A stretch of 64,000 nucleotides of DNA, taken from Polytrichum commune. Its lineage: Eukaryota; Streptophyta; Polytrichopsida; Polytrichales; Polytrichaceae. This document shows, piece by piece, positions 19,089 to 45,006 of this stretch. Each line of letters begins with the position of its first letter. Position 1 is the first letter of the stretch. The stretch covers positions 5,890,001-5,954,000 of the forward strand of contig OX485806.1 of assembly GCA_950295325.1 (NCBI GenBank), in the 5' to 3' direction. The position numbers and the translations under genes were made by a program. The notes below the pieces were generated by a model. That model saw nothing but the letters and a program-made list of their open reading frames with translations. It did not search any database and was not told where the DNA came from.

Positions 19089-19192
19089 ACCATCCCCTGC
19101 CTCCGAGCAGCTCAAAGTGATCTTCACGCAGTCTGCTTTCACGTCGCTTCACTGGAACGCATCTATTCAATAACTGTTTTTTACTTAGAGCC

Positions 19193-22100
19193 ATGGAAGA
19201 AGAGAGTGTAAGAGCTATCGAAGAGAGTGTGAAAGCCATGGAAGTAGAGAGCGTGGCACCAATTCCAGTACCAGCAGCTGCAACTACAGCAACTGGAACA
19301 ACAGGGAAAGCAAACAAAGGAAATTCGAAGAAGTCTGCTCACCCTACCACAAAGGTCATGGCGGAAACAGCCGAAAGAGAAAGGTCAGCTAAAGCTTCTG
19401 GGAAACATCAAAAGGAAAGCGGGAAACCGATGGCTGCTGAGGCCGCCACTACCACTGCTGCCCTAATCGATGTCAATCCGCCTAAAGGAACCCGGGATTT
19501 TCCACCCGAGGGCATGCGCCTGCAGAAATGGCTTTTCGACCACTTCAGAGAGGTGAACATTTTTGTTTGCAGCCCTTTTTTCTTTCTTTGCCCACAGATG
19601 ATGTTGTAAGCTGTTGACACTGTTGGTGAGCTGAAATTCTAATTTCACTTTCTGTGGCATGGTGTGTGGTGGGTTATGGTTTATGGTTTAGGTTTCCAAG
19701 CTCTGCGCATTTGAGGAAGTTGACTTCCCGATGTTGGAGTCAGAAGAGCTTTACATTCGGAAAGCCGGTGAAGAGATTGTGGATCAGGTACAAGTTCAGG
19801 CTTTGAATCGATTCCTCCTTCCTTCCTTCCTTCCTACCTACCTACACGGCTCTTTAAATCTGTGGACGCAGAGGGGTAATTCTCAGAGCCTGGATTATGT
19901 GTACTGGAGGATCGAAGGAAGAACGAGCCTAATACCGAGTTGTGTCTTTACATCTGTGCTTCAATTGATGTTTTGATGTTAGTAATATTGAATGTGGGGG
20001 CTTCTGTTGGAAGTAGCACACATGTTTGAGTGGATAGGTGGACCCAACTTGATTGGTTCTGACTGGGGTGCAGCTCTATAATTTTGAAGATAAGGGCCAA
20101 AGGAGGGTGGCATTGCGACCTGAGCTTACACCTTCTTTGGCTCGACTTGTATTGCAAAAAAGGTGAGTAATCTGCAAGCAGAGTCAAATTGTTCTCCCCC
20201 TCTAGCTTTTCCAGGATTGTGTTTTAGGATTTAGGGTTTAGGGTTTCTGTAGTTTTTTTGTTTTCTGATGCCTTTTATTTATTAATGCTGCAGGCAAGAG
20301 CTGTCATTTCCCTTGAAGTGGTTTGCAATTGGTCAGTGCTGGCGGTATGAGAACACAACTCGAGGACGCCGCCGGGAGCACTACCAATGGAACATGGATA
20401 TCCTAGGTGTCCCAGGAGTTGAGGCAAGTTTGTGGTTGCATTCATCTTATAATATTGGTCTCTTGATGGTGGAATTTCTTTTCTGTTGGTGTCTATCTCT
20501 GAGAGACAGGGCATAGTGGTATGAATTTGATATAGTTCATTCATGCTGAACGGTCAAGGAGCCCATAGATAACAGTCTGCTTAGTGATTGTTGTGACTCA
20601 AGTGGCGTCCTTGAGTGCCATTGTAGGATCTGTCAATACGTAATCATCAAGGACTAATGTCTTCTCTTTGGGGTTTCTTGTGGTTCTTTCACTAATCCAC
20701 ATGTATTGTTCTTACAGGCTGAAGCCGAACTCCTTTCAGCCATTGTAATGTTCTTCACCAGAGTTGGCATCACATCTGATGATGTGGGGATTAAAGTTTC
20801 AAATCGGAAGGTATTGCCCCCTTCTTTTATATGCTTCACCTAGATAGCCTCGGAATGGTTCCTTACAGATAATTATCAAAGGAGGAACTGTCTGCCATCC
20901 ATTTTAAACGAACTTTAACCTAAGGGAGTTTGTTGCCTCTACCCTCAAGCAGTTCCTGCCTGTTTTACTGCAGGTGTTGCAAGCAGTGCTGGAGAAGTAT
21001 GACATTCCCAAGGAATCATTTGCACCTGTCTGTGTGATTGTTGATAAGGTACTTTCTACATTTACATATCAACAATGGTGTATTGGATTGCCTGCAATAC
21101 ATCTTGCTTTGGATTTTGGACATTGTTTAGACATTGGGAAGTGAACTTTAACCCTCAGTTCAATTAGAACGAATCTATTTCAACGAGCTCTGACTATAAA
21201 ATATTTAGGGTTGCGTGGAATAATATCTTGGATGCATAGTACATTTACAGAGTCCTTTCCAGGGAAGTTCCTGATTTGTGTTAGTGTATGTATGTGTCAG
21301 CTGGATAAAATTACTCGGAAAGAGATGGAAAGTGATCTGCAAAAAGTTAACGTCCCCATTGAGGCCATTGAGGGGATTTTGCATGCGCTTACTCTACAAT
21401 CTTTTGATGATCTAGAAGGTTAGTCCCCTCACTTAAGAAAATTTTGATGTGATGAAATTGTAGATATTATATCCAACAAATTCGAAATGGTAGGATTTGG
21501 TGATGTGGGCAGTGTCTGATTCATAAGCCTGCTTCTTTTAGTTGTAGTTGTGTTTTAAATTAAAATAATAATGATAATAGAAGCAATAATTACTACTGAT
21601 AATGGTGATGGTGATCATCATCATTTTATCTGTAAGTGATTACTGAAACATGATACTTACAAGGAGACTCTCTTAGTTGGTAGTACTTATACATGTTCAT
21701 GGTGTTCTTATGGTAATATTGAAGCATGTGCACTAATAGTTTGGAAATGGTGGTGCAGCCTTAATAGGTGCAGGGAGTGGTGCAGTAGCAGAACTGAAGC
21801 AACTATTTGCTCTGGCTGAAGGTTATGGAATTGCTGACTGGCTCCGATTTGATGCCTCTGTGGTTAGGGGTCTTGCGTACTATACTGGGACTGTTTTTGA
21901 GGTGTGTTTCTATTCATGTTTTCTGCTTACTTCGATAATGATTGGTTGACTGACCTCTTCAATTGATCTATTAGGTTCCAAGTGCTACACAGAAAGTGCT
22001 GACCTTGCCATGTTCAGGCAGGATCACACAGATTTGTAACTGTTGGATCAGTTCAGAAGTACTAGATCATTGTGTGTATTCTGCAATGTAATGCTTGGAA

Positions 22101-28613: not shown

Positions 28614-30342
28614 CACCCTAACCTTGATAATGTCACACCCTCCGTTTCACCAAAAAGTGTGATATAAACAAGGTGTGACATACTTGATAATGTCACATTT
28701 TGTGCATAATGTGATATTATTAAAAAATATGTATAAAATCAAAATATAATTACAATTTTTTTTTTAAATAACAAATACGAGACTTCAATTTTTACCAATG
28801 TAAAATCTAATTCAAAATTGTGAATAACAACAAGAGCACATCATAATGTGTCATTGAGATCAGGTAAAGACCTCTCACTAGAGACAAAGAAGCTTCTAAT
28901 GTCACATTGTTTTGTTGATGTTAAATGTGCAACACCAATTCTAATGAGTTTGTCATGGATTTTTTCCATTTCTAACAACTCATGAGTGCTTAAAATCTGA
29001 GAACCTTGGCTAGCCATAAAATTCAAAACATCTTTAGCATATTTTTGTGCATCGCTTAGCTTCACTACTTTAGACTCATCATCACTGCTATCAACAATCA
29101 ATGGGTCCACTTCCATGGAATCAAGAACCTGTTCGCCATCTTGCACTAATTGCACAAGCTCCTCATTAGAAAATTCCACCTCAAAATCATCTTCACCTTC
29201 CATGTTTATGTACTCCAAAGGACAAAGCTTTTCTACAGGCTTGCCTTCAACATCCAAACCCAAATTTAATGCGGCGATGAGTCTACCCAATTCCAAAGTT
29301 GCTTCCTCCATTTTGGACTTCATACGTTCATCAAGATTGTTTATATCTGCATTCCACTCTGCATGCAATATGGCGGACTTTCTCCAACAATTTCTAATGG
29401 TTTGATCATCTAATTCATGCCATGCCGCCACACACCATAGCATAGCTTGAAATACATCAACATTCAATTTCCCCAAATCTTCATTTGAGTTGTTATCAAT
29501 TTGTTGCAAAGTCCAGGCAACAAGCTTGCGCTTATAGCACATTTTGAATGCTGCAATCACTCCTTGATCCAAAGGCTGAACAACTGAAGTCACATTTGGT
29601 GGAAGGAACAAGATAGTGATATGGGAGAGTACAAAAGCATGAAACCCATCTATAACTTTCTTGACCTCACCATGAATATCATGGCTTCCTGCATTATCCA
29701 TAATAATGCAAATCTTTTTGTCTTTCAATGCCATTCTTCGGTTCTCACTCTTCACCCAATGTGTAAAAACATCACCATTCATCCAGGCTGAATTGTTAAA
29801 ATTATAGTGTACTGTCCTATTTGGATCAAAATTCCGAGGAAAGCATCTGGGACGCGAATGAAAACAAGCTTCAATTGCTCCTTCCCTGAGATATTAGTGC
29901 AAAGCCCCAATGTCACACGGTCCTTCTTTTTCTTATTTCCTTTCGCCTTCCCAATATTCAAAGTCTTATAAGGAGAGGCTCTATAATACAAACTTGTCTC
30001 ATCATACGATGCATACGATGCAGGCGGAGCTGCGAGAAGTTGATCTGCGAGAGAAACCGTTGCTTCTTCGGCACATGAGATTCAAGAACCCAAGATTCAA
30101 GCGGAAGCAGGTGAAGATGCCGACGTCATCCATAGAATTTGTTGTCCATCCGGCCTTTTTTCATCCATGTTACTTGTTATTATCACACTTACACTACAAA
30201 TTTTGAAAAACAAATGTGACATTATCAAGGGTGATAGTGATAATAACGAGGGAGTTTTACACTATGGAAATCGGTTTCAAACTTTTAGGTGACAATATCA
30301 AGGTGTTCTATTAACAAGTGTGATATTATCAAGGTTAGGGTG
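28614..30342 (-). mobile_element. pogo/Tigger-like DNA transposon (Tc1-mariner superfamily)
   Basis: The ends are 24-bp inverted repeats, CACCCTAACCTTGATAATGT then CACA at 28614-28637 and its reverse complement at 30319-30342, with one mismatch. A TA target duplication flanks them (28612-28613 and 30343-30344), as expected for Tc1/mariner. A 14-bp motif near TTGATAATGTCACA recurs inside each end: 28624-28637 and 28684-28697 on the left; 30215-30228, 30289-30302 and 30319-30332, inverted, on the right. These are probably transposase-binding sites. The 1,729-bp interior holds a minus-strand transposase remnant with a frameshift and no DNA-binding domain, so the copy is non-autonomous. Confidence 0.9.
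28841..30030 (-). pseudogene. Broken pogo-type (DDE_1) transposase
   Basis: The coding strand is minus. The 5' part reads YDETSLYYRASPYKTL, giving the first catalytic Asp in its usual DET context, then KDRVTLGLCTN. The 3' part, open for 313 codons from 29782 to 28841, gives IIMDNAGSHD (second Asp) and LPPNVTSVVQPLDQGVIAAF (third Asp), diagnostic of the pogo/Tigger/CENP-B DDE_1 family. An acidic tail follows and ends SLPDLNDTL. The two parts lie in different frames; the shift falls near 29850-29857, where RPRCFPRNFDPNR appears in the second frame. Upstream of YDET only about 200 bases remain and they do not encode the CENP-B-like helix-turn-helix domain of about 150 residues seen in complete members. 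Frameshift and truncation argue against domestication. Confidence 0.85.
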
Positions 30343-33710: not shown

Positions 33711-34474
33711 TTAAGCTATGTAAATAATAAAGTCTGAAACTCTTGACAAATTTATTCACCTCCTATAAACTTTGGAATACTTAGTAGAATCTACACCAAT
33801 CTTAGACACAACATTGTGCTTATCCATGAGTTAAGTAACAATAGTCAAGGACGTTACCACGGTCCACGATTAGAGACTCCATGACCTAAGGTAGCCATTG
33901 CACCACTTAACCAATACTTAAACCCTAATACTAAACACCTCCATATGAAGACTCTTTTATATGCTTGGGGGAGAGAATACTTGGCTTAGTTTATTCACCG
34001 AGGCTCAATAGACATGTGCTAAGTGAGGAAGCGCATGGTGTTTGGTGTATAAGAGGTTCTTACTAAGTTCAAGAAAGTTACACAATATGGCAAAAGAACA
34101 TGTTTGTATACACAATATTTTTGTATTGAGTGTAAATGTTGGCAGCCTCTCAATGAACTCGATATAGGTGAGATAAATGTGTGACATGATTGCAACTAAG
34201 CTTAGCTAAAGTCACCTGACATGTGCCTTTCTAACACACAATTATATGTTTGGGTTGGCACGGGTGTATGTTAGATTGACTCTTCCCAATTTGAACACCA
34301 TCAATAATGCATTGCTCATGTTTGAATGGTCTTTTACTCTTTGCAAATTACAGTAGTGCAAGTTAATATGTTGCTTGGACTAGTGATTTGATGTATACCC
34401 AAATTTCATAATAGTCATTGACATATTGAAAATACCTTCTATCAAACAGCAAATGAGAAGTGTATTGAACTATC
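33574..34474 (+). repeat. 1.33-kb dispersed repeat, copy 2, left part
   Basis: Homologous to 1203-2154 of copy 1, including an expanded CT microsatellite (33671-33708). It is cut at TATC by the retroelement and resumes at 44615-45006. Confidence 0.75.
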
Positions 34475-34808
34475 TGTCACGGTATGCGGCATCGAAGGCC
34501 GCACCGTATCCGTTGGGTTTCATCCATCTAGATTTGGATGGATGAATCTAGATGTGGAGAGGAAGGCTCCTAAGTGAGGAGCCTCCTCCTTGGCTTGGCA
34601 TTCTTGCCAAGTCAAGTCTTGTGAGTTAGTGTGTGGAGAGAGCTTGTGTGAGGTGTTGATTGCATGATTTTGCAATAAATCTTGAGTTCTTCTTCCTCTA
34701 CTTACACTCTTGGATTCTCCCTTGGTGAAGTGAGAGATAGCTTGACTAATTATGTGCATTTGAAGAGAGATTTAGAGCTCTTATGAGTGTTCTATTCTTT
34801 TCCTTCTC
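34475..34808 (+). repeat. Retroelement 5' terminal repeat
   Basis: Begins TGTCACGG directly after TATC. It is 98.8% identical by count to 44175-44508. Similarity stops after TTCCTTCTC; beyond this the 5' side runs into the leader, whereas the 3' side runs into a 106-bp repeat. The two termini are therefore not simple equal LTRs. Confidence 0.85.
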
Positions 34809-35117
34809 ACTTGGCAAGAATGCTTCATCTTTGATGTTTTCTTCTTCATTTTTGAGATGTAACGCGCAAGGGAGGGCGTGAAGACAAGGAGTGACAATGT
34901 TGTGAAGTTCCGGAGTGAGAACACCACGGATTTGTGAAGCAACATGAAGAATGCTTGCTTGTGAAGGTCACTTGAAGGTGAATTGTGGTGATAAGGTGTT
35001 GAATTCTCCACAGAATTTTATGTCAATTGATTGTCTGCAAGCTTGAATTCACAGCATTGAGTTGTGAGGAACTATTCTTGTTTGTATTTGAAAACATTTC
35101 ATTCATTCAAAAACAAA

Positions 35118-35350
35118 AATTTAAAAAAAAAAAAAAAAAAAAAAGTTTAGAAGAAGAAGCCAAGAGCCGGCTCCGGGAGCTGGAGCTCCTGGCCGGCCCC
35201 TGGCCGCCTCTGCTCTGTGTTCGTCGGTCGCTGCCAAGCCTCGCTGCCCGCCCCGCTACCCGGCCGCCTGCCCCGTTACCCGTCCGAGACCGGGTTCGAA
35301 CCGGGGACTTCGGCGATAACGGCTAAAGGTGCTAACCGCCTACGCCACCT
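35118..35350 (-). repeat. tRNA-derived SINE-like segment in the leader
   Basis: On the minus strand TGGCGTAGGCGGTTAGCACC (35328-35347) fits an A box and GGTTCGAACCC (35292-35302) a B box, about 30 bases apart as in a tRNA. A GC-rich body follows and ends in a T-run on that strand (about 35121-35143). This is the plan of a tRNA-derived SINE, oriented against the retroelement. The T-rich tail recalls plant Au-type SINEs, but no target duplication was identified. It could instead be an inherent part of the leader. Confidence 0.5.
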
Positions 35351-35369
35351 CACCTTGGTGGTAGGCAAG

Positions 35370-35700
35370 GAGCAGGGAGACTTTTGGGCATAACCGTTTG
35401 AGGACCTGGCCGCCTCCCTGGCAGCCAGGTATCGGGGAGACTTTTGGGCATAATCGTTGAGGACCTGGCAGCAGGTATCGAGGAGTTTTTTTGGGCACAA
35501 GGTTGAGGCCCTGGCTGCCTCCATCGCAGCCAGGAGAGCAGGAAGATTTGTGAGCATTATCGGTTGAGGGGCTGCCTCCCTGGCAGCCAGGGGATCGGGT
35601 TGATTTTTGGGCATAAGGGGTCGAGGTTGCCTCCCCGATCGGGGAGCTTGTTGGGCATAATTGATTGGGACCCAGGTGCTTGCAAGTCCAACCGGTTACA
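35370..35700 (+). repeat. Imperfect tandem repeat units in the leader
   Basis: About five degenerate units of roughly 60-70 bp share GGGAGACTTTTGGGCATAAT, then TTGAGGACCTGGC and a GCCTCCCTGGCAGCCAGG palindrome. The last unit ends AAGTCCAACCGGTTACAT. Closely related single units occur outside the retroelement at about 54097-54155 and 55065-55120. Confidence 0.65.
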
Positions 35701-36553
35701 TTTTATTTTTGTTTTGTTTTTGTGTTTGTTTTAATTAATTAATGCCTTAATTAATTAAAACCGGATTTTTTTATTTTAATTAATTAATTAATTACTTTAA
35801 ATTTCCTTACAACTTCTAATCCTTTCTCTTCTCTCTAAGAGGTTAATTTCTTGGGCTCATTAATCAAGGATACAAGGAATAAAACTTAAGCTCTTATGAA
35901 GTATTAAACATACTTGGGATTTCTTTTAGGAGTTGTGTTGTACAAAATTTCCGAGAGGAGTGTCATTGGGAATTGGATGGCATGTGCAATTTTCGTTCGG
36001 CCTACAATAAATTGTTATTAGGGTCGAATTGTGTTTATCAACACATATTCCTGGCATTGTTGTGAGGAGAGATTCTTAGGTAGTGGTGGGAAAAATGAGA
36101 GATGTGCATTCTCTTTTCCTAAGCAACAGGGGCTCTTCGTTTTGACCACCAACCGCAGGCGGGTGCCGGTTGGTCGCGGTCATTTTTATTTTTGTTTAAG
36201 TGTTGTTTTGGGGAAGAGGATCCAGTGCTGTTCTTGCATTGTTCCTTGTATTTTGTTGTGGTACCTTCCCCCTGTGGTGGGCTTGTTGTGTTGGAGTCTT
36301 CCAACATTGCCCCAATTTGTTTGTCCTAGATTGTGATAGGGTATTGTGGGGGTGAGGTCGGATTAATGACCGACGAGACCCTTGTGTGTGCACCAAGTGG
36401 GCGGTGCTTGTTTTCCTTATGGTGAGGCTGGGTTGATGACCAGCAGACCATAAGTTTGGTGGTGTTTGTAGGTGCAGGTTGCCTTTTACCCTTTACCTTT
36501 ACACCACATTAGTTTAGATTGTTGGCTCCAGTGACCGAACCCATTGCGGGTTT

Positions 36554-37900
36554 ATGGTTACAACGAGGAGCCAACATTATCGTTCGCCGTCTCCAACATC
36601 ATCACAAGGTCGATTCTCAGACCTTTTGGACAGTGAACCAGTGGTAGCACCCGACGAGGCTTTTAAGCCTACTTCGGCGTGGGGGACTGCCACTCGGTCT
36701 TACGTCCATTGGGTGGGATCCTTCGACGAGATGGAGGAGGAGTCAAGAGGCGGCATTCGAGACCGATTTTCTGGTCGAGCAGGGACCATTTCCTTGCAAG
36801 ATTGGAAAATCCGGTTCAGGACATGGATGAGGGAGAAACGTCAACGCAATACCAACTTCAACGATTGGTACGTGTTCGAGCTTCTACCACAACATTTAGA
36901 GCACGAAGCTCTCCAGACCTATGAGCAATGGACGGATGTTCATTGGATGGAGTTGCGCCAAGTGGAGCGGTACTGGGAGACTCGGGTTGAGTTGGTATCC
37001 GCTTTGAAGGAAGGCGCAGCTTCCAGTATGATGGCCGTTCCTGAGGTTAAGACGGAGGTACAGGAGGGAGTATACGAGGTGGATGTGGAGGGAGCTTTTC
37101 CTATCAATCCCACGGCTCAGGGCCAAGCTCCCGCAGCGGCGAGTACCTCGAGCCCCATTCTTCCACTGTCACGTTATGCCCAGGCTACCCAGGCGGCATT
37201 AGCTTCTTTAGGAGCTCCGCCGGGTTTTGATCCTCTACAGGAATTCCAACTCCATTTGGAGGAGGAATATGGAGGCTTCCGCCGCGATTAAATGCAGCGT
37301 ATCCAGGACTTCCGACGGGAGAAAGATGACACACCTCGTACCATGTACACGAGGTTGGCGAGGTTTGCCAAGGAATCTGGAGGTGTTTTCGCCGAGAGCC
37401 AGTTGGTAAAGGTGTTTTTGTCAAAAATTAACAAACGCCTCATTGACTTAGTTTTACCCAGGATCATCATGGATCATGGTGGCCGAGCGACACTTGCGGA
37501 AGCTTTCGCCATTGTTGAGCAGTGTGACCGTGCCTTGTGTCAGCACGACGCCACTGACTTGGTGTCCATGCTAGTGGATTCTAGCAAATCCCGGAAGGTT
37601 CCGGTTGCGGCTGCGGGGTTGGCGGAGGCAGAGGTAGACAAGATCTTGCATTGTTGGTCTTGTGGACAGGCGGGCCATGCTAAGAAGGATTGTCCTTCGA
37701 AGCATAGGCAAGCCCAGACCGTCACTACTCCGAAGCGGAAACCATTTGTTCCCGCTAAGGGCTCGACGAAGGGGACGGGTAATCAGTTACCCAAACAATT
37801 GAAGTGTTCTCATTGTGGGCGAAACAATCACGCGGTGGAGAACTGCTTCGCTCTCCATCCTGAGAAACGTCCTTCTTCCGACCGGGAGAAGACGTTGGAG
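36554..37900 (+). other. gag region with two CCHC zinc knuckles
   Basis: The N-terminal part is a helical, charged capsid-like region without a distinctive motif. Two CX2CX4HX4C knuckles follow: CWSCGQAGHAKKDC (37652-37693) and CSHCGRNNHAVENC (37805-37846). In retroelements such knuckles bind the packaged RNA. A serine/alanine-rich spacer follows and leads to the protease. Confidence 0.85.
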
Positions 37901-38639
37901 GCGAAGATTGGAGCCATGGAGGAGAGGTTCAAAAGCTTGGCTTCATCCGGCCAAATTTTGGCCTCACCGTCTTCCTCCGCAGCTCAGGCTAGTTCTTCCA
38001 CTCCGGATTACTATATGTTCGGAGCCTCGGGCGAGGTGGTGAGTTCTGCAGCTGTGACACGTGCTCAAACCGTGTCACGAGCCACGCCTTCGACCACAGG
38101 AGAGTCTGTGGACAGCTTACGAGCTCGGCACAATGGTCCCGCGGATCAGATTGGTCAGGCACGCCTTCCATTGTCTTTTGGATTGGCTGATGCTGCCCAA
38201 TCTGTCAGTGGTCGCAATTCGAGCTTGGAGGCTTCGAGTCCGTCGACCGACGTGTTGCACACTTTGGCATCCAAAGTGTTGCACACGCCTTTGTTCACAG
38301 CAATGGATTGGTCGTCATCCGATATCCAACTAGCTAAGGTTTTTTACCTAGCAGGTAGGATATTGGAGGGGAAGGCAACCCCGTCTTCTCTTACTGTGGC
38401 TCAAGCAACCGCAGACCTTCCTACCACGGAGGATCCCGAGGAAGCCGCCAAACGGCGAGCGAGGCTTGCGGAGGAGGCCATTGCGTCTTTTGACGCACAC
38501 ACCTTGGATGGCCAGGAGCCAACCACATCTTATCATTCACCAACCTCTGCAGGCGCAGCTTATCTATCCGATGTAGCTGCTCGACCTGCTCGCGAGCGTC
38601 AAGGCATTCGACCTGGCGTTGTACGGATGGTGAATGATA

Positions 38640-39010
38640 CCGGCATTTTGGTGGTCAGTCGTACTGGGAGCAATGCTACCCGGGTTGCTCCCCGTTGTGT
38701 GATGATGGATTCAGGGGCACAACCGGTTATGCTCGGCAAGAGGCTTGCCCAAGAGTTGGGGTTGAAGGCCGAGGATTTGACTCCCTGTCCATTCACCATT
38801 GTCACATCCATTGGTCACGTGGAGCGGGCCATGGGTTATACTCGGGAGCCATTAGATCTTAGCTTCCGAGTGAAGCCTGGAGATTCACCCGCACCTCTTC
38901 TTCTTAGGTGTGCGGTGACGGATGCGACCAACTATGACATTTTAGTTGGTCAGCAAGCACTTTACCCTCTTGGTTTTGGTTTGGACAACTGGACTGAGGA
39001 GGCGTTGATC
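38640..39010 (+). other. Retropepsin-like aspartic protease domain
   Basis: MMDSGAQPVMLGKRLAQELG carries the DSGA active-site motif (Asp at 38708). A downstream hydrophobic stretch, YDILVGQQALYPLGF, matches the ILG-type flap-distal segment of retroelement proteases. It sits between gag and the methyltransferase. Confidence 0.8.
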
Positions 39011-39369
39011 CGACCAGGTTGGTCGGCTGGGGATGGCCGCAGAGAACTTATTCCCGTGGCTTTTGCGGCGGCCGCGACCATAGCACCATTATCTATGGTT
39101 TTTGGATGTGGTGCTATGGTGGACACATTGCCTTATGGTTCTGCATTGTTGGAGGAGTCATTGGCATTCATGGGGAGTACAAACGATCAACGGGATATGG
39201 CACCTAAGGGTGCACTGGTGCGCCATCCCAAGGATCCCCTTCCTCCTTGGCGTGATTCCGCCGAGCTATTTCGGAGGTGCGAGGATATTGTTCACTCTCT
39301 CACTCCTAGGACACCGGTCATACCCGGTGTCCTCTCGGCATTGGCACATCCCATTTTATGGCAGCCGCC

Positions 39370-40350
39370 AGACACGGGAATTACTTTGGTGGAACTGTTT
39401 GGGGGCATCGGCACAGGCTTAGCGGCCGTATTGGAGGCTGGCCTCACGGTTAGACGGTATGTCTATGTGGACAACTCTCAAGTGTCCACCCGTGTGGCTC
39501 GTCACCATCTTCACCAATTGATGGTATTGTACCCCCAACAGTTACCTCCAACTGCCATTCGTGGGTGTTTTTCACGTCTCCCTCGTGATGTCACACTCAT
39601 CAGTGAGGCCGATTTACGACATTTAGGTCCGGTGGATATGGTGATTGCGGGATGGCCATGCCAGGGCCATTCACGTGCTGGAGCCGGCCGAGGTGTAGAG
39701 GATCCCAGGTCTAATTTGTTTTGGGACCTCATCCGCCTCATGCAGTGGTGGTTTTCCCACCAACATACTCCTCCAGGGTATATATTCGAGAATGTACCAT
39801 TGTTGGGCGACTCCCGGGATAAGGTGTTGGAAGGTGATCATTATGTTCGTCAACACCTTGGAGATCCCATTTTTGTGGATGCCGCGAGCATTGGTTCTTA
39901 TGCCCACCGGCCTCGGTGGATTTGGACCAACCTCGCACCGTCATCTACTTTAGCTGCAGCATTTTCTGCAGTACCTCTACCTTTGGATCAGAAGGTGGAT
40001 GACATCTTGGATGCAAACCGGACCTCTTTGCCGGTTGTTCGAGATGATTTACCCCCGTTGGCATTGGTTAACAAAGCGGGGACACCACGGAAAGCATTTC
40101 CTACCTTTATGACGTTTCCACAGTCATTCGCCTTCCGCGATCGGGGGCCGGGTATGGTGTGGGATGTTCACACCAAAACCCACACCGAACCATTGGCTGA
40201 CGAACGGGAACGTGCCATGGGATTCCGCACTGGCACCACCGCAGCTCCCGGCCTTTCTGAGGGCCAGCGACGCTTCGTGTTGGGCCAAGCTATGGATCTT
40301 CATACTATGGTGTGGACTGTTGCTTTATGCCTTTCATTGCAAAGGCATCG
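39370..40350 (+). other. Cytosine-C5 DNA methyltransferase domain, DNMT3-like
   Basis: About 325 residues read: VELFGGIGTG (motif I, AdoMet binding; FGGIGTG at 39398-39418), VDMVIAGWPCQGHSRAG (motif IV; PCQ with the catalytic Cys at 39656-39664), YIFENVPLLGD (motif VI; ENV at 39788-39796), SYAHRPRWIWTNL (motif VIII-like), then LADERERAMGFRTG and FVLGQAMDLHTMVWTV (motifs IX/X). Motifs run I to X in unpermuted order. The IDAKEVSAAHRARYFWGN and RQRLLGRSWSVPVIRHL segments of animal DNMT3 have clear counterparts, so DNMT3 is the closest family I can name. The known enzymes transfer methyl groups from AdoMet to cytosine in DNA. It lies between protease and reverse transcriptase; catalytic motifs look intact, activity is untested. 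Confidence 0.9.
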
Positions 40351-40829
40351 TGGTGACCAGTGCTTCTCTCTGGGGGCAGAGGACTCTGGTCAGGGGGCAC
40401 AGCGGTCCACACCCATGGAGGAGGGAATTCACGCCATGGTTGGAGAAGCCGAACGAATTTTTCAATTCGAGCAGTATGTGATGGAGGAGCTTCGAGCTCA
40501 ACATTTTTACACTGCTTCGGTTTCTTCGCCTCCGGTGGTGGCTTCATCATCACATATTAGTGGTGATGAAGAAATGTCAGACTCTAGTACTAGCACCGAG
40601 ACTGGGGGCATGGTTAATGCCCCCTCCTCTCATTAGCAATTAGAGTCTGTGCTAGCATCAGGTGGTTCTCCTTTGGTGGAGAAGGAGACTACAGAGTTTG
40701 ATGATTGGCCACTTGAATTAGGCCCTCGTCTCACTGGTGCTGAGGCACGGAAGGTACGAGCATTTATTCGCTCGTACCGTAGATGTTTTGCTTTTAGCCT
40801 TCAAGATCTTGAAGGTTATAAAGGAAAAC

Positions 40830-41640
40830 CCATCCACATACAGTTGGAGGACGACCATCCCATTTTTCGGAGACCTTACAGGCTCAGTGTTTCCGAGCGG
40901 ATTGGCGTTCAGGCTCGTTGCCGAGAGCTCTTGGCAGCAGGGCTAATCGAACTTTCCAACGGGGAGTATGCTTGTGCTACGGTTATGCCATCGAAGAAGG
41001 ATATCTTTGGCAATTGGACGGAGAAGCGGATGTGTAGGGATTACCGTCCAGTTAATCGGAAGACCAAGTCGGATCGGTATCCCATGCCGATCCCGGAGGA
41101 ATTGTTCGATGCCATCGGATTTTCTCGGGTCTTTAGCACCTTGGACTTGAGATCCGGATATCACCAACTTCCATTACTTACGGGAGATCGGGTGAAGACC
41201 GCATTTTGGGGAGTTGATCAAGATGGGAAAGATCAACTTTATCATTGGAAGTTTCTTCCATTTGGCCTGAAGAATGCACCCGCTGAGTTTCAGCGGGTGA
41301 TGGATTAAGTTCTCTCTGGCTTGCCCTTTGCTCGGTGTTACATAGACGATGTGATCATCTTCAGCACAACACCACAGGAGCATGTGAGGCATCTGCAATC
41401 CGTTTTTGAACGGTTGCAGCGGTGGGGATTGCGCTTGCACCACGGAAAATGCAAGTTTTTCCATGACCGGTTGGCATATTTGGGGCATATGATTGTTCCA
41501 GGAGGTCTTGGGATACAACAAGCTAAGGTGGACGCATTGCAGAAGATTCCGGCACCGGTAGATGTGCCGAGACTTCGTGCTTTCTTAGGCTTGGCGAATT
41601 ACTATCGGCAATTCGTCAAGAACTTTAGCTTGATTGCCAA
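40830..41640 (+). other. Reverse transcriptase domain
   Basis: RPYRLSVSERIG, MCRDYRPVNRKTKSDRYPMP, FSTLDLRSGYHQLPL, FLPFGLKNAPAEFQRVMD and YIDDVIIFS are standard Ty3/gypsy RT blocks in order. The connection segment LRAFLGLANYYRQFVKNFS follows. Confidence 0.93.
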
Positions 41641-41729
41641 GCCGCTCACCATTCTCACGAGCAAGGACCAACCTTGGACTTGGGGTCGTGACCAACAATA
41701 GGCATTTGAGACATTGAAGCAGAAACTGG

Positions 41730-42135
41730 GTACGGCTCCAGTGCTTCGACGTCCAGATGTCTCCAAATCTTTCCAGTTGCATACAGACTGGAGCTCATTG
41801 GGTTTGGGAGCAGTTCTTACTCAGAAAGATGACGTTGGCCGGGAGTATGTTGTTGCTTACGCGTCGCGAAGCAACAACACGGCGGAGGCCAATTATTCGT
41901 CCTATGAGGGAGAAGCATTGGCGGCGGTATGGGCTATTGCCCATTTTCGGCCGTATCTTTATGGTCAGCACTTTACTTTGGTGACTGACCATCAGCCGTT
42001 ACGGTGGCTCATGGAGTCGGATAAGCTTACTGGCAAGCTTGCCAGGTGGGCTTTGTTGCTCCAGGAGTATGACTTTGAGGTGGTACACCGTGCTGGGATT
42101 ACCAACATGGATGCAGATGGACTCTCACGCAATCC
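41730..42135 (+). other. RNase H domain
   Basis: QLHTDWSSLGLGAVLTQ, the YSSYEGEALAAVWAIAHFR block with its conserved Glu, LVTDHQPLRWLM and ITNMDADGLSR form the usual Ty3/gypsy RNase H series directly after RT. Confidence 0.9.
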
Positions 42136-42479
42136 AAGTCCTTCGGATGAGGACTTGACCGGGGCCAGGTGGCATGGAGATTGTGATCGAAAGGCGGTTC
42201 CAGGTTGGCACGCGGCTGCCTACCTCACTTTATTTGCTGGTGCATCTGTTGAGATTCCGATACGGGGCTCGGATGATGAGACTGATCGGCCTCAAGCTAT
42301 TGCGGATATATGGGAGGATCTTCCCGTATTGCATAAGCTTCAACAAGGTACCTTTCCTTTGTCTATTTTGGCAATGGAAAGGGATAGGATTGGACATCGA
42401 ATAACAAGGTTCCGTTGGGAAAACGGTTTGTTATTCCGATTGTGGCCGGATGGGACAAGGCGTATTGTTCCTAGGCCGG

Positions 42480-43560
42480 ATCAGAGGGCCTCCTTGGTGC
42501 GAGAAGTGCACGAGGAACTTGGCCATTTTGGCATACGCAGGACACATTCGATGTTGCGTGGCCAATATTGGTGGACTGGCATGTATCAGCAGGTGGCTGC
42601 ATATGTCGGGAGGTGTGAAGTTTGTGACCGGGTCAGGTCTAGCTTTAACACCTTATCACCTCAGTTACAGCCCTTACCTATCATGGGATTAGGCTACCGT
42701 TGGTCGCTGGACTTTGCAGGGCCGTTGGTGGTTACACCACGTGGAGCAAAGTACGTTTTTGTGATGGTCGAGCATTTTAGCAAATGGATTGAGCTTGTTG
42801 CTCTACCCCAGAACTCTGCAGAGTTGGCCGCGGCCGCCTTTTTGGATCGTGTGTTAGCACGTTTTGGAGCACCAGCTTAGGTGTTGACGGACCAAGGGAG
42901 GGAGTTCCTTGGTGTTTTTGAGGAGTTGTGCACTAAGGCTCTCATAGATCACCGCACCACCTCTCGGGATCATCCGGAGGCAGATGGCTTGGCTGAACGG
43001 GTTGTTCAGACCACCAAGCGTGGCTTGAGGAAGTATGGATTACTTCGGGGAAGCCACCGAGATTGGGACCTTATGTTGCCATGGATTGCTATGGGCTATC
43101 GATTTAGTAGGCAGGCCTCTTTGGCATCGTACAGCCCGTATCAATTATTGTATGGACGTGAGCCTATACTCCCGAGTTCTATTCGGGAAAAACTAGCTCA
43201 TGTTGTGAACTTGGATGACCCAGACCTTTGGGCAGAGTGTTTGCAAGAACGGGCTCAATTCTTCCAGAGGGCCATGCCTATGGCCATGGAGAATTTGTCC
43301 ATTGCTCAGCACCGTGACACATTGCGTTATGCACGCATTCGTAGTGGTGCTTACCGGCCTCAGTTGCGGAGATTTCGGCAAGGGGATTATGTTTATCTTC
43401 AACGTGAGGCGCCTACGACATTGGATGTCAGGGCGGGGCGCACTATCTTTCGGGTGAAGGAGGTGTTGCCAAGTGGTTTGTTGTTGTTGGAAGGCAAGGA
43501 TGGCAGGGAATGTCGCGAGCATTCCAAAAACTGTGCCCCATGTCATCTACCTATTGAGGG
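42480..43560 (+). other. Integrase: zinc-binding, catalytic core and C-terminal part
   Basis: The HHCC zinc domain is seen in HEELGHFGIRRTHSML with CEVCDRVR. The DDE core is seen in WSLDFAGPL (first Asp), TDQGREFLG (second Asp) and HPEADGLAERVVQ (Glu). A basic GPY/F-like region near RFRQGDYVYLQREA and VLPSGLLLLEGKDGRE follows. The position after RT and RNase H supports Ty3/gypsy. Confidence 0.9.
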
Positions 43561-43603
43561 TACAGTTCATCCTGAACTGGCCGTCGTACCAGAGGGTCTT
43601 CCA

Positions 43604-43738
43604 TGTTTTGTGTGTGGAGACAAGAAGAGAGCGGTTACTATGCTCTTGTGTGATCAGTGTCAACGTGGTTGGCACATGGCATGCTTGCGGCCACCCTTGA
43701 CTTCTCTACCATCTGGACAGTGGAGTTGTCTTCGCTGT
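43604..43738 (+). other. PHD finger at the integrase C-terminus
   Basis: CFVCGDKKRAVTMLLCDQC, then GWHMACLRPPLTSLPSGQW and SCLRC give the Cys4-His-Cys3 zinc pattern and the CDQC..GWH..CL..PL....P.G.W.C..C signature of PHD fingers. PHD fingers commonly bind histone H3 tails. Many Ty3/gypsy chromoviruses carry a chromodomain at this spot, so a PHD finger may play a similar targeting part; that is inference. Confidence 0.9.
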
Positions 43739-44055
43739 CGAGGATCTTCGGTACTTGGTGCTTCCACCAATCGTACTCAATGATCTTGTGTGGTTTCATC
43801 ATCTTGTGCTTGTCCAAATGGAAAATGAAGAGTTATGGCTTAGAGACGCAACCAACATGAGGCGGTGGATTTAATTCTTTGGGATCTGATGGCCAAACAT
43901 CAGAGGCGATTAAGGATGGGGCTCACCTTGCACCCAGCCTACAGTTCCTTGGAATAACGTTTACTACACTAGTTAGTTGCGGAGCAATCTTTCATGATCC
44001 ATGCCCTTTAGATTGGCATTGGTCCTAGCTGCTTGGCGGGACTCCATAGTCAGCT

Positions 44056-44064
44056 GAGGGGGGG
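44056..44064 (+). other. Polypurine tract
   Basis: GAGGGGGGG followed by CA and then TGTCGAGG. This is the expected plus-strand primer site just before the 3' terminal repeat. It abuts the 106-bp repeat, not the 334-bp one. Confidence 0.75.
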
Positions 44065-44066
44065 CA

Positions 44067-44172
44067 TGTCGAGGTGTGTTGTTTATGTGTGACTTTGCTA
44101 TGTTTTAGTTTTGTTTGTTAGTGGTGGTTGGTATTCGAGCTGCAGTGACACACGATCGTTATTTACACGACA
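44067..44172 (+). repeat. 106-bp terminal-type repeat, inner copy
   Basis: Starts TGTCG and ends CGACA, perfect inverted ends. It differs from 44509-44614 at one visible position. It follows the polypurine tract directly and is separated from the 334-bp repeat by two bases (GC). Confidence 0.85.
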
Positions 44173-44174
44173 GC

Positions 44175-44508
44175 TGTCACGGTATGCGGCATCGAAGGCC
44201 GCACCGTATCCGTTGGGTTTCATCCATCTAGATTTGGATGGATGAATCTAGATGTGGAGAGGAAGGCTCCTAAGTGAGGAGCCTCCTCCTTGGCTTGGCA
44301 TTCTTGCCAAGTCAAGTCTTGTGAGTTAGTGTGTGGAGAGAGCTTGTGTGAGGTGTTGATTGCATGATTTTGCAATAAATCTTGAGTTCTTCTTCCTCTA
44401 CTTATACTCTTGGATTCTCCCTTGGTGGAGTGAGAGATAGCTTGACTAATTATGTGCATTTGAAGAGAGATTTAGAGCTCTTATGAGTGTTCTACTCTCT
44501 TCCTTCTC
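44175..44508 (+). repeat. Retroelement 3' copy of the 334-bp terminal repeat
   Basis: Partner of 34475-34808 with four substitutions. It is sandwiched between the two 106-bp repeats. Confidence 0.85.
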
Positions 44509-44614
44509 TGTCGAGGTGTGTTGTTTATGTGTGACTTTGCTATGTTTTAGTTTTGTTTGTTAGTGGTGGTTGGTACTCGAGCTGCAGTGACACACGATCG
44601 TTATTTACACGACA
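44509..44614 (+). repeat. 106-bp terminal-type repeat, outer copy
   Basis: Forms the right end of the insertion; CGACA is followed by the TATC target duplication. Confidence 0.85.
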
Positions 44615-45006
44615 TATCTTTTGAGCTTAGTTGTCATAAGTGATGGATATTTGATACCAAGGGATATATCATAACATCATAACACTTTATTTTATAGCTT
44701 ATGCCAACCTTTGCCACTAAGCTTTGACTTGAAAAAAACATAGAAACATAGCAAGATATCTAGCTGCTTTGATAAGCATACATATTCCATGTTAACATTT
44801 CAAAGAACTTACTAGATGTGTAGAACATAGCACTAGATCCATGATTATAGTATTTTCTATATTTAGTGATGTCATAGACTTGTGATGAAGAAAACCCCAC
44901 CCTCCCACTCTTGCTTCATTTTGATGAAGAATGAGAAAGGAAAAGGCCTCTGATAGGAAGAGGATCAAGCTTTGAGTTTGAAAAGCTTAGAAAAAGACGA
45001 ATCTCA
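44615..45006 (+). repeat. 1.33-kb dispersed repeat, copy 2, right part
   Basis: Continues copy 2 after the retroelement, matching 2151-2535. It ends near GATCAAGCTTTGAGTTTG. Confidence 0.75.

Follow-up and report, generated by a model that had tools for sequence, protein, structure and literature searches.

Cytosine DNA methyltransferases carried by retroelements have hitherto been described in dinoflagellates and a charophyte. De Mendoza et al. (2018, PMC5890265) describe a Gypsy element with a Dnmt3-type enzyme, KnitGypsy-Dnmt3, from the charophyte Klebsormidium nitens, as well as the dinoflagellate elements SymbioDIRS-Dnmt3 and SymbioLINE-Dnmt, which also carry a cytosine methyltransferase. 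The same article reports de novo CG methylation in yeast by SymbioDIRS-Dnmt3 enzymes and puts forward self-methylation of complementary DNA (cDNA) for the dinoflagellate DIRS elements. In passages of a further article (PMC6338049), it is argued that retroelement cytosine methyltransferases were lost in land plants together with large DNA viruses. Here, we analyzed a stretch of 64,000 nucleotides from the moss Polytrichum commune (contig OX485806.1, positions 5,890,001 to 5,954,000; hereafter the window), which contains a 10.14-kb element at 34475-44614. Judged from its sequence, this element belongs to a Gypsy-type retrotransposon family of P. commune that carries a DNMT3-like C5 cytosine methyltransferase, and this family extends the range of such elements to land plants.

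The methyltransferase domain occupies about 39350-40348 (+), in frame from 39350, within an open reading frame (ORF) of 1114 amino acids (aa) at 37292-40636 (+) that matches the PF00145 profile at E 5.2e-12. An earlier note on this DNA had reported a C5 methyltransferase domain at this place; the domain is real, although the start given there, 39370, misses the frame by one base. Motifs I (LFGGIG), IV (GWPCQ), VI (ENV), VIII (AHRPRW) and X (GQAMD), named by eye, follow in this order along the domain. The catalytic cysteine codon of motif IV lies at 39659-39661 (+) and encodes domain residue C104, which is at least 90% conserved among 26 rows from two branches of the enzyme family, and E147 and R189 are invariant in the same rows. 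DNMT3A was the first match in a search of PDB sequences (E 1.6e-11), and other matches were weaker (3g7u, presumably an E. coli enzyme, E 2e-6; HaeIII, E 2.2e-5). The fold was confidently predicted, and the DNMT3 catalytic domain is the closest to it in fold and sequence among solved methyltransferases. These results suggest a catalytically plausible, DNMT3-like enzyme. The flanks of the catalytic cysteine vary in relatives (GWECQ, GPECK, GWPCE, GFECQ in P0029, P0033, P0036, P0037, P0038, P0044 and P0046), and such variation in motif IV is unusual among C5 methyltransferases.

The domain is embedded in a Gypsy-type coding region, all parts of which are on the plus strand. The first part of gag (36518-37288), named by its position and without a Pfam match, is closed by an in-frame stop peculiar to this copy. 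The ORF at 37292-40636 then comprises the rest of gag, a CCHC zinc knuckle (37649-37699; PF00098, E 0.003, under the Pfam cut-off), a weakly matching aspartic protease (PR) core (38699-38785; PF13650, E 0.0076, also under the cut-off), the methyltransferase and a linker. Downstream of the enzyme and in the same frame follow the reverse transcriptase (RT; 40637-41698; PF00078), RNaseH with the N-terminal part of the integrase (INT; 41702-42877; PF17917, PF17919, PF17921 and PF00665), and the remainder of the integrase, assigned by position, with a C-terminal part (42881-43780) that includes a PHD finger (43604-43738; PF00628, E 1.4e-10). The PR-RT-RNaseH-integrase order of Ty3/Gypsy elements is thus present, the PR match being weak, and the top PDB sequence match of the RT is Ty3 (4ol8, E 6.1e-59). 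The domain order agrees with the earlier placement of the enzyme between the protease and RT of a Ty3/gypsy element, but the enzyme is encoded ahead of a putative leaky stop, together with Gag, and not simply inside Pol. The copy in the window is interrupted by extra in-frame stops at 37289, 41306 (inside the RT), 41699 and 42878 and is therefore not a working element; its methyltransferase reading frame is intact. Only 4 of 334 positions distinguish its terminal repeats A1 and A2, and 1 of 106 distinguishes B1 from B2, so this copy is probably young.

At least 121 places in the genome carry the enzyme (121 scored of 594 candidates), with identities of 65-100%, and the scored places are located on seven large contigs (C1-C7). 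Moreover, a protein search yielded 47 homologous proteins, including some from Marchantia polymorpha and Calypogeia fissa; given these two sets of homologues, the methyltransferase domain is no product of chance. Of 30 loci (L021-L050), 29 match the window in DNA alignments across the enzyme to 41533 or further, into the RT, so the further linked copies for which the earlier note had proposed a search do exist. At L035 the alignment ends at 40372 and the leaky-stop region is missing. A candidate class of copies without RT was rejected, as it vanished once minus-strand loci had been oriented. No internal stop interrupts the domain in 22 of the first 30 loci listed.

Ratios of nonsynonymous to synonymous substitution rates (dN/dS) were calculated from 19 of 30 loci, some of which carry stops inside the domain. 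The pooled value was 0.229 for the enzyme domain (141 pairs) and 0.114 for the RT (148 pairs), while the linker that joins the enzyme to the stop gave 0.885 (87 pairs, over a short stretch), indicating that the enzyme has been maintained and the linker hardly so. These rates show purifying selection on the enzyme. The value for PR (pooled 0.80, median 0.40) is unreliable owing to fixed offsets and to indels in some copies, and dS between the window and L008 is saturated (2.7).

The enzyme tree comprised 52 rows, with part of DNMT3A and two host DRM-like genes as outgroup and no bacterial rows; six of the 50 protein matches were omitted, four as short and two (P0025 and P0045) for broken matches. 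Thirty-six rows formed one clade (support 99/95), within which one branch of 12 rows contained the Marchantia and Calypogeia proteins (100/100) and a smaller branch of 15 rows contained the copies of the window's family (100/99). Rows without an organism label occurred in both branches. The liverwort proteins (P0020-P0022, P0024, P0026-P0028, P0030, P0031 and others; 43-51% identity for those listed) are annotated as hypothetical or unnamed, apart from one UniRef name beginning "DNA (cytosine-5". As in the moss element, a protease-like DSGAQ, recognized by eye, precedes the enzyme in P0021 and P0024, and in P0024 the enzyme is followed by RT. P0169 has gag, PR, enzyme and RT in a single frame and no PHD match. 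Among the homologues listed, most of which carry no label, none was labelled Klebsormidium, nor was any among the 11 rows obtained with P0029 as query.

On the other side of the enzyme tree, a weakly supported group of 11 rows (92/42) contained elements in which, unlike in the moss element, a related enzyme lies between RNaseH and integrase (P0032, P0037, P0038, P0044, P0046 and the partial P0036). The order in P0046 was taken from domains and match positions, and P0036 stops inside the start of the integrase. P0038 and P0044 have a PHD finger after the integrase, and P0038 also contains a G-patch domain, located after the methyltransferase and before the integrase. Where these proteins include an RT, it falls in the same clade as that of the moss element. 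In the RT tree of 25 rows, the ten enzyme carriers included formed this one clade (100/99), apart from Ty3 and the sampled Gypsy families of the genome; few other Gypsy families were sampled, and long branches were flagged. The control Gypsy families were called enzyme-free from a negative motif search confined to loci of about 3.3 kb, and their longest frames (2018 and 2086 aa) are absent from the PF00145 list, which scored 123 of 353 candidates. The simplest reading of both trees would be that the enzyme was captured once and later changed its place in the coding region. The earlier note had suggested a new host group or a new lineage of such elements if the genome proved to be a land plant's, which it is; the family, however, is not confined to this genome, with relatives in Marchantia, Calypogeia and other contigs. 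On contig C8 of the genome, rbcL, trnR-CCG and accD stand next to one another (rbcL and accD recognized by eye), and the matK of this contig is 97% like an unlabelled entry, 89% like that of Dawsonia and 75% like that of Oedipodium, which places the host among the mosses of the Polytrichum alliance. The seven large contigs fit the n = 7 of that family, and the Physcomitrella entries 8htu and 7xqp rank directly after a multi-repeat chain, the top match, for a light-harvesting protein of the host. The high-copy, partly intact moss family and its Marchantia homologues contradict the loss in land plants proposed in PMC6338049.

The enzyme-bearing ORF ends in TAG CAA TTA (40634-40642, +), which fits UAG-CARYYA, a context that we take to be the readthrough signal of the tobacco mosaic virus (TMV) type. 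The RT continues in the enzyme's frame past this stop, and the translation contains no Met between the stop and the RT core. Unlike the four extra stops of the window copy, the stop at 40634 is conserved in the family. TAG-CARYYA stands at the stop position in 29 of 30 loci (out of the enzyme's frame in L041, and with the region missing in L035), and a subfamily of about 65% identity has TAG CAA TCA in 3/3 loci, at the same alignment column in the two that were aligned. Genome-wide, the stop codon was TAG in 68/68 cases when the flanks were fixed; when the left flank, TAG and GAG were fixed, the six bases between matched CARYYA in 75/81, the exceptions being TAGTTA (2), TAATTA (3) and CGATTA (1). 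We therefore regard the stop as putatively leaky, and readthrough would join RT-INT to the Gag-side enzyme. SIRE1 and TMV use stop-codon readthrough in the same UAG-CARYYA context; in the moss element, the stop parts an enzyme-bearing Gag from RT-INT.

Upstream of the stop, an 8-bp RNA hairpin with a 5-base loop can be drawn at 40604-40624 (+); in both subfamilies 9 bases separate its end from the stop, and it shows one compensatory pair change. The shuffle control is weak for the number of pairs changed on both sides, a value reached in 138/500 shuffles, and stronger for the paired cells (2/500), so that the conservation of this hairpin is no more than suggestive. A stimulatory fold 3' of the stop is not claimed: the window gave a z of -4.6 against mononucleotide shuffles, and its -48 kcal/mol compares with -20 to -27 kcal/mol in three divergent loci. 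The hairpin's GGGGGCATG (40604-40612) is similar to the 3' polypurine tract GGGGGGGCATG (44056-44066) and might be a central polypurine tract.

The ends of the element are split. Repeat A1 (334 bp, 34475-34808) stands on the left, and B1 (106 bp, 44067-44172), A2 (44175-44508) and B2 (44509-44614), the last forming the right end, follow the coding region, all on the plus strand. The window shares this layout with 5/5 further members of its subfamily and with the single divergent copy examined, while A1 of L022 is without an inner piece. The element has this A1-ORF-B1-A2-B2 arrangement instead of the two plain long terminal repeats (LTRs) of Ty3/Gypsy, and we therefore speak of a Gypsy-type element whose ends are aberrant. 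Such split direct repeats are common to DIRS/PAT elements, which have a tyrosine recombinase and no target duplication, whereas the moss element has an integrase and target duplications; the six coding pieces scanned gave no match to a recombinase. The target-site duplication TATC flanks the element at 34471-34474 and 44615-44618. Termini TGTC...GACA and perfect 4-bp duplications were recognized by eye in 7/7 copies examined (TATC, ATAA, TGTC, TACA, ACCC and GAGA; GAAG in the divergent copy), which points to insertion by the integrase. The B1/A2 joint reads GACA-GC-TGTC, as expected of a tail-to-head joint.

A polypurine tract (44056-44064, +) is present in the same letters upstream of B1 in 6/6 copies of the window's subfamily. 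Adjoining A1, a putative self-priming site (34809-34823, +) is complementary at 15/15 bases to a stretch within A (34598-34612, +). All 15 bases pair in 4/6 copies, and 13 and 9 in the other two; in the divergent copy both partners are changed to other letters and 13 bases still pair. Tf1/sushi elements prime themselves from a primer site beside the left repeat that is complementary to the element's own repeat. The putative site of the moss element likewise lies beside the left repeat and is complementary to part of it, and we infer self-priming of reverse transcription, which would require that the paired stretch within A lies at the 5' end of the element's RNA. In the 5' leader (35100-35350), an A-run is followed by a minus-strand stretch resembling a tRNA-derived short interspersed element, with A-box- and B-box-like words seen by eye; ARAGORN found no tRNA anywhere in the window, and an Rfam scan of the window gave no match.

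KnitGypsy-Dnmt3 is the closest described system. As far as its description in PMC5890265 goes, it shares with the moss element the Gypsy domains, an enzyme of the Dnmt3 type that lies unpermuted and without introns in the coding region and is under purifying selection, and repeats that a figure legend calls DIRS-like despite the Gypsy domains. The moss element is set apart by its host, by the position of the enzyme before a conserved UAG-CARYYA, by 4-bp target duplications and by a possible self-priming site, although beyond the host these are differences of description and may be shared. The same applies to the PHD finger, which the main text of that article does not mention. SymbioDIRS-Dnmt3 and SymbioLINE-Dnmt differ in being DIRS or LINE elements, the moss element being a Gypsy element with integrase. 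Titles, abstract openings and passages of the open-licence PMC literature contained no report of such an element in land plants or bryophytes.

The most likely reading, to which we assign a probability of about 0.5, has the enzyme synthesized together with Gag and incorporated in excess into the particle, and methylating cDNA of the element itself. This reading starts from what the sequence shows, namely the domain order, the predicted fold with its conserved catalytic residues, purifying selection, the leaky-stop context, and the split repeats with 4-bp duplications; readthrough and packaging, like the substrate of the enzyme and the timing and benefit of its action, are our inference, and the site of action, in particle or nucleus, is conjecture. 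UAG would end translation for most ribosomes, giving Gag-PR-methyltransferase, and a minority would read through to a fusion with RT-RNaseH-INT-PHD; since most would stop, the enzyme would be in excess over RT in the particle. The packaged enzyme could methylate the double-stranded cDNA prior to integration, and the PHD finger of the integrase could then read target chromatin. Such pre-methylated cDNA would arrive marked, and might thereby escape recognition as foreign DNA or damp its own later expression. More tentatively, and as a reading that we hold to be less likely than not, a functional enzyme of the DNMT3 type may have persisted in the lineage since before the split of mosses and liverworts, made at the Gag level via a leaky stop and methylating the element's own DNA in the particle before insertion; the split repeats and self-priming would then reflect a mode of replication intermediate between those of LTR and DIRS elements. 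The leaky stop is a concrete clue in that it places the enzyme with the shell proteins, favouring a role at the level of the particle, and the family brings within reach of genetically tractable plants the question of what use DNA methylation is to a mobile element.

Several observations weigh against the reading that we hold most likely. C-to-T-type differences among 29 copies (CG 0.043, CHG 0.046, CHH 0.034) show no strong scar of CG methylation, and CpG depletion is milder in the element (observed/expected 0.73) than in its flanks (0.45 and 0.58); the missing clear CG-decay scar by itself neither supports nor excludes the mechanism. Motif IV reads PCQ here and PCN in DNMT3A and in the host DRM-like genes, and the fixed flanks bias the 68/68 and 75/81 counts towards young copies. 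In addition, passages of PMC5890265 report no methylation in yeast by the isolated K. nitens enzyme, a result that its authors call inconclusive.

Other explanations account for part of these data. The enzyme might act on the host genome, methylating chromatin near target sites or that of rival elements and aimed by the integrase PHD finger, instead of acting on its own cDNA. The predicted DNMT3-type fold would suit such an enzyme, as would the PHD finger, which follows the integrase in the moss element and likewise in P0038 and P0044 of the other branch, but the putative leaky stop would part the enzyme from the PHD finger in most molecules and P0169 has the enzyme without a PHD match, so that we consider this rather unlikely. 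We find it less probable still that the domain has been retained without catalysis, as a part of Gag that binds nucleic acids or helps to assemble particles: its Gag-side position and the altered motif IV of certain relatives (GWECQ, GPECK, GWPCE) would fit, yet the conservation of C104, E147 and R189 across two branches and a domain dN/dS of 0.23 speak against it. The stop at 40634 might also be an ordinary, fixed one, with RT-INT made by reinitiation or splicing and the enzyme not specially at the Gag level. Readthrough is putative here, and the structure kept in both subfamilies lies upstream of the stop, where readthrough stimulators are not usually located; the RT nevertheless stays in frame beyond the stop with no Met before its core, and two subfamilies retain the nine-base context although the linker evolves nearly neutrally, which makes this slightly more doubtful again than a non-catalytic domain.

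Bacterial contamination, or a host DRM gene captured recently, is a very improbable source of the enzyme, and we found no point in favour of either. Contamination is refuted by the copies on seven large contigs and by the closer match to DNMT3A than to 3g7u or HaeIII, the enzyme tree being silent on bacteria. As to DRM, the pattern GGSPCN(N/D)L picked out two host loci (L057 and L058), both PCNN and DRM-like. They are permuted (VI-X before I-IV) and fall outside the element enzymes in the tree, whereas the element enzyme is unpermuted (I-IV-VI-VIII-X); simple DRM capture, against which the earlier note had also argued, is therefore unlikely. No unpermuted host DNMT3 gene was found by this pattern, the only search made, and the methyltransferase domain had no match in the viral contigs scanned with it.

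Elsewhere in the window, a 350-aa frame at 28841-29893 (-) resembles, by eye, a DDE transposase of the Tigger/pogo kind, and 19121-19609 (+) is, by eye, a probable exon of histidyl-tRNA synthetase. In the wider genome, 14 matches to light-harvesting genes, all with the same family score, form a striking tandem array of no more than 95 kb at G000:C5:1751760-1846160. Additionally, decayed matK copies were found on nuclear contigs (G000:C1:44839401 and C2:70037132), which are probably transfers of plastid DNA.
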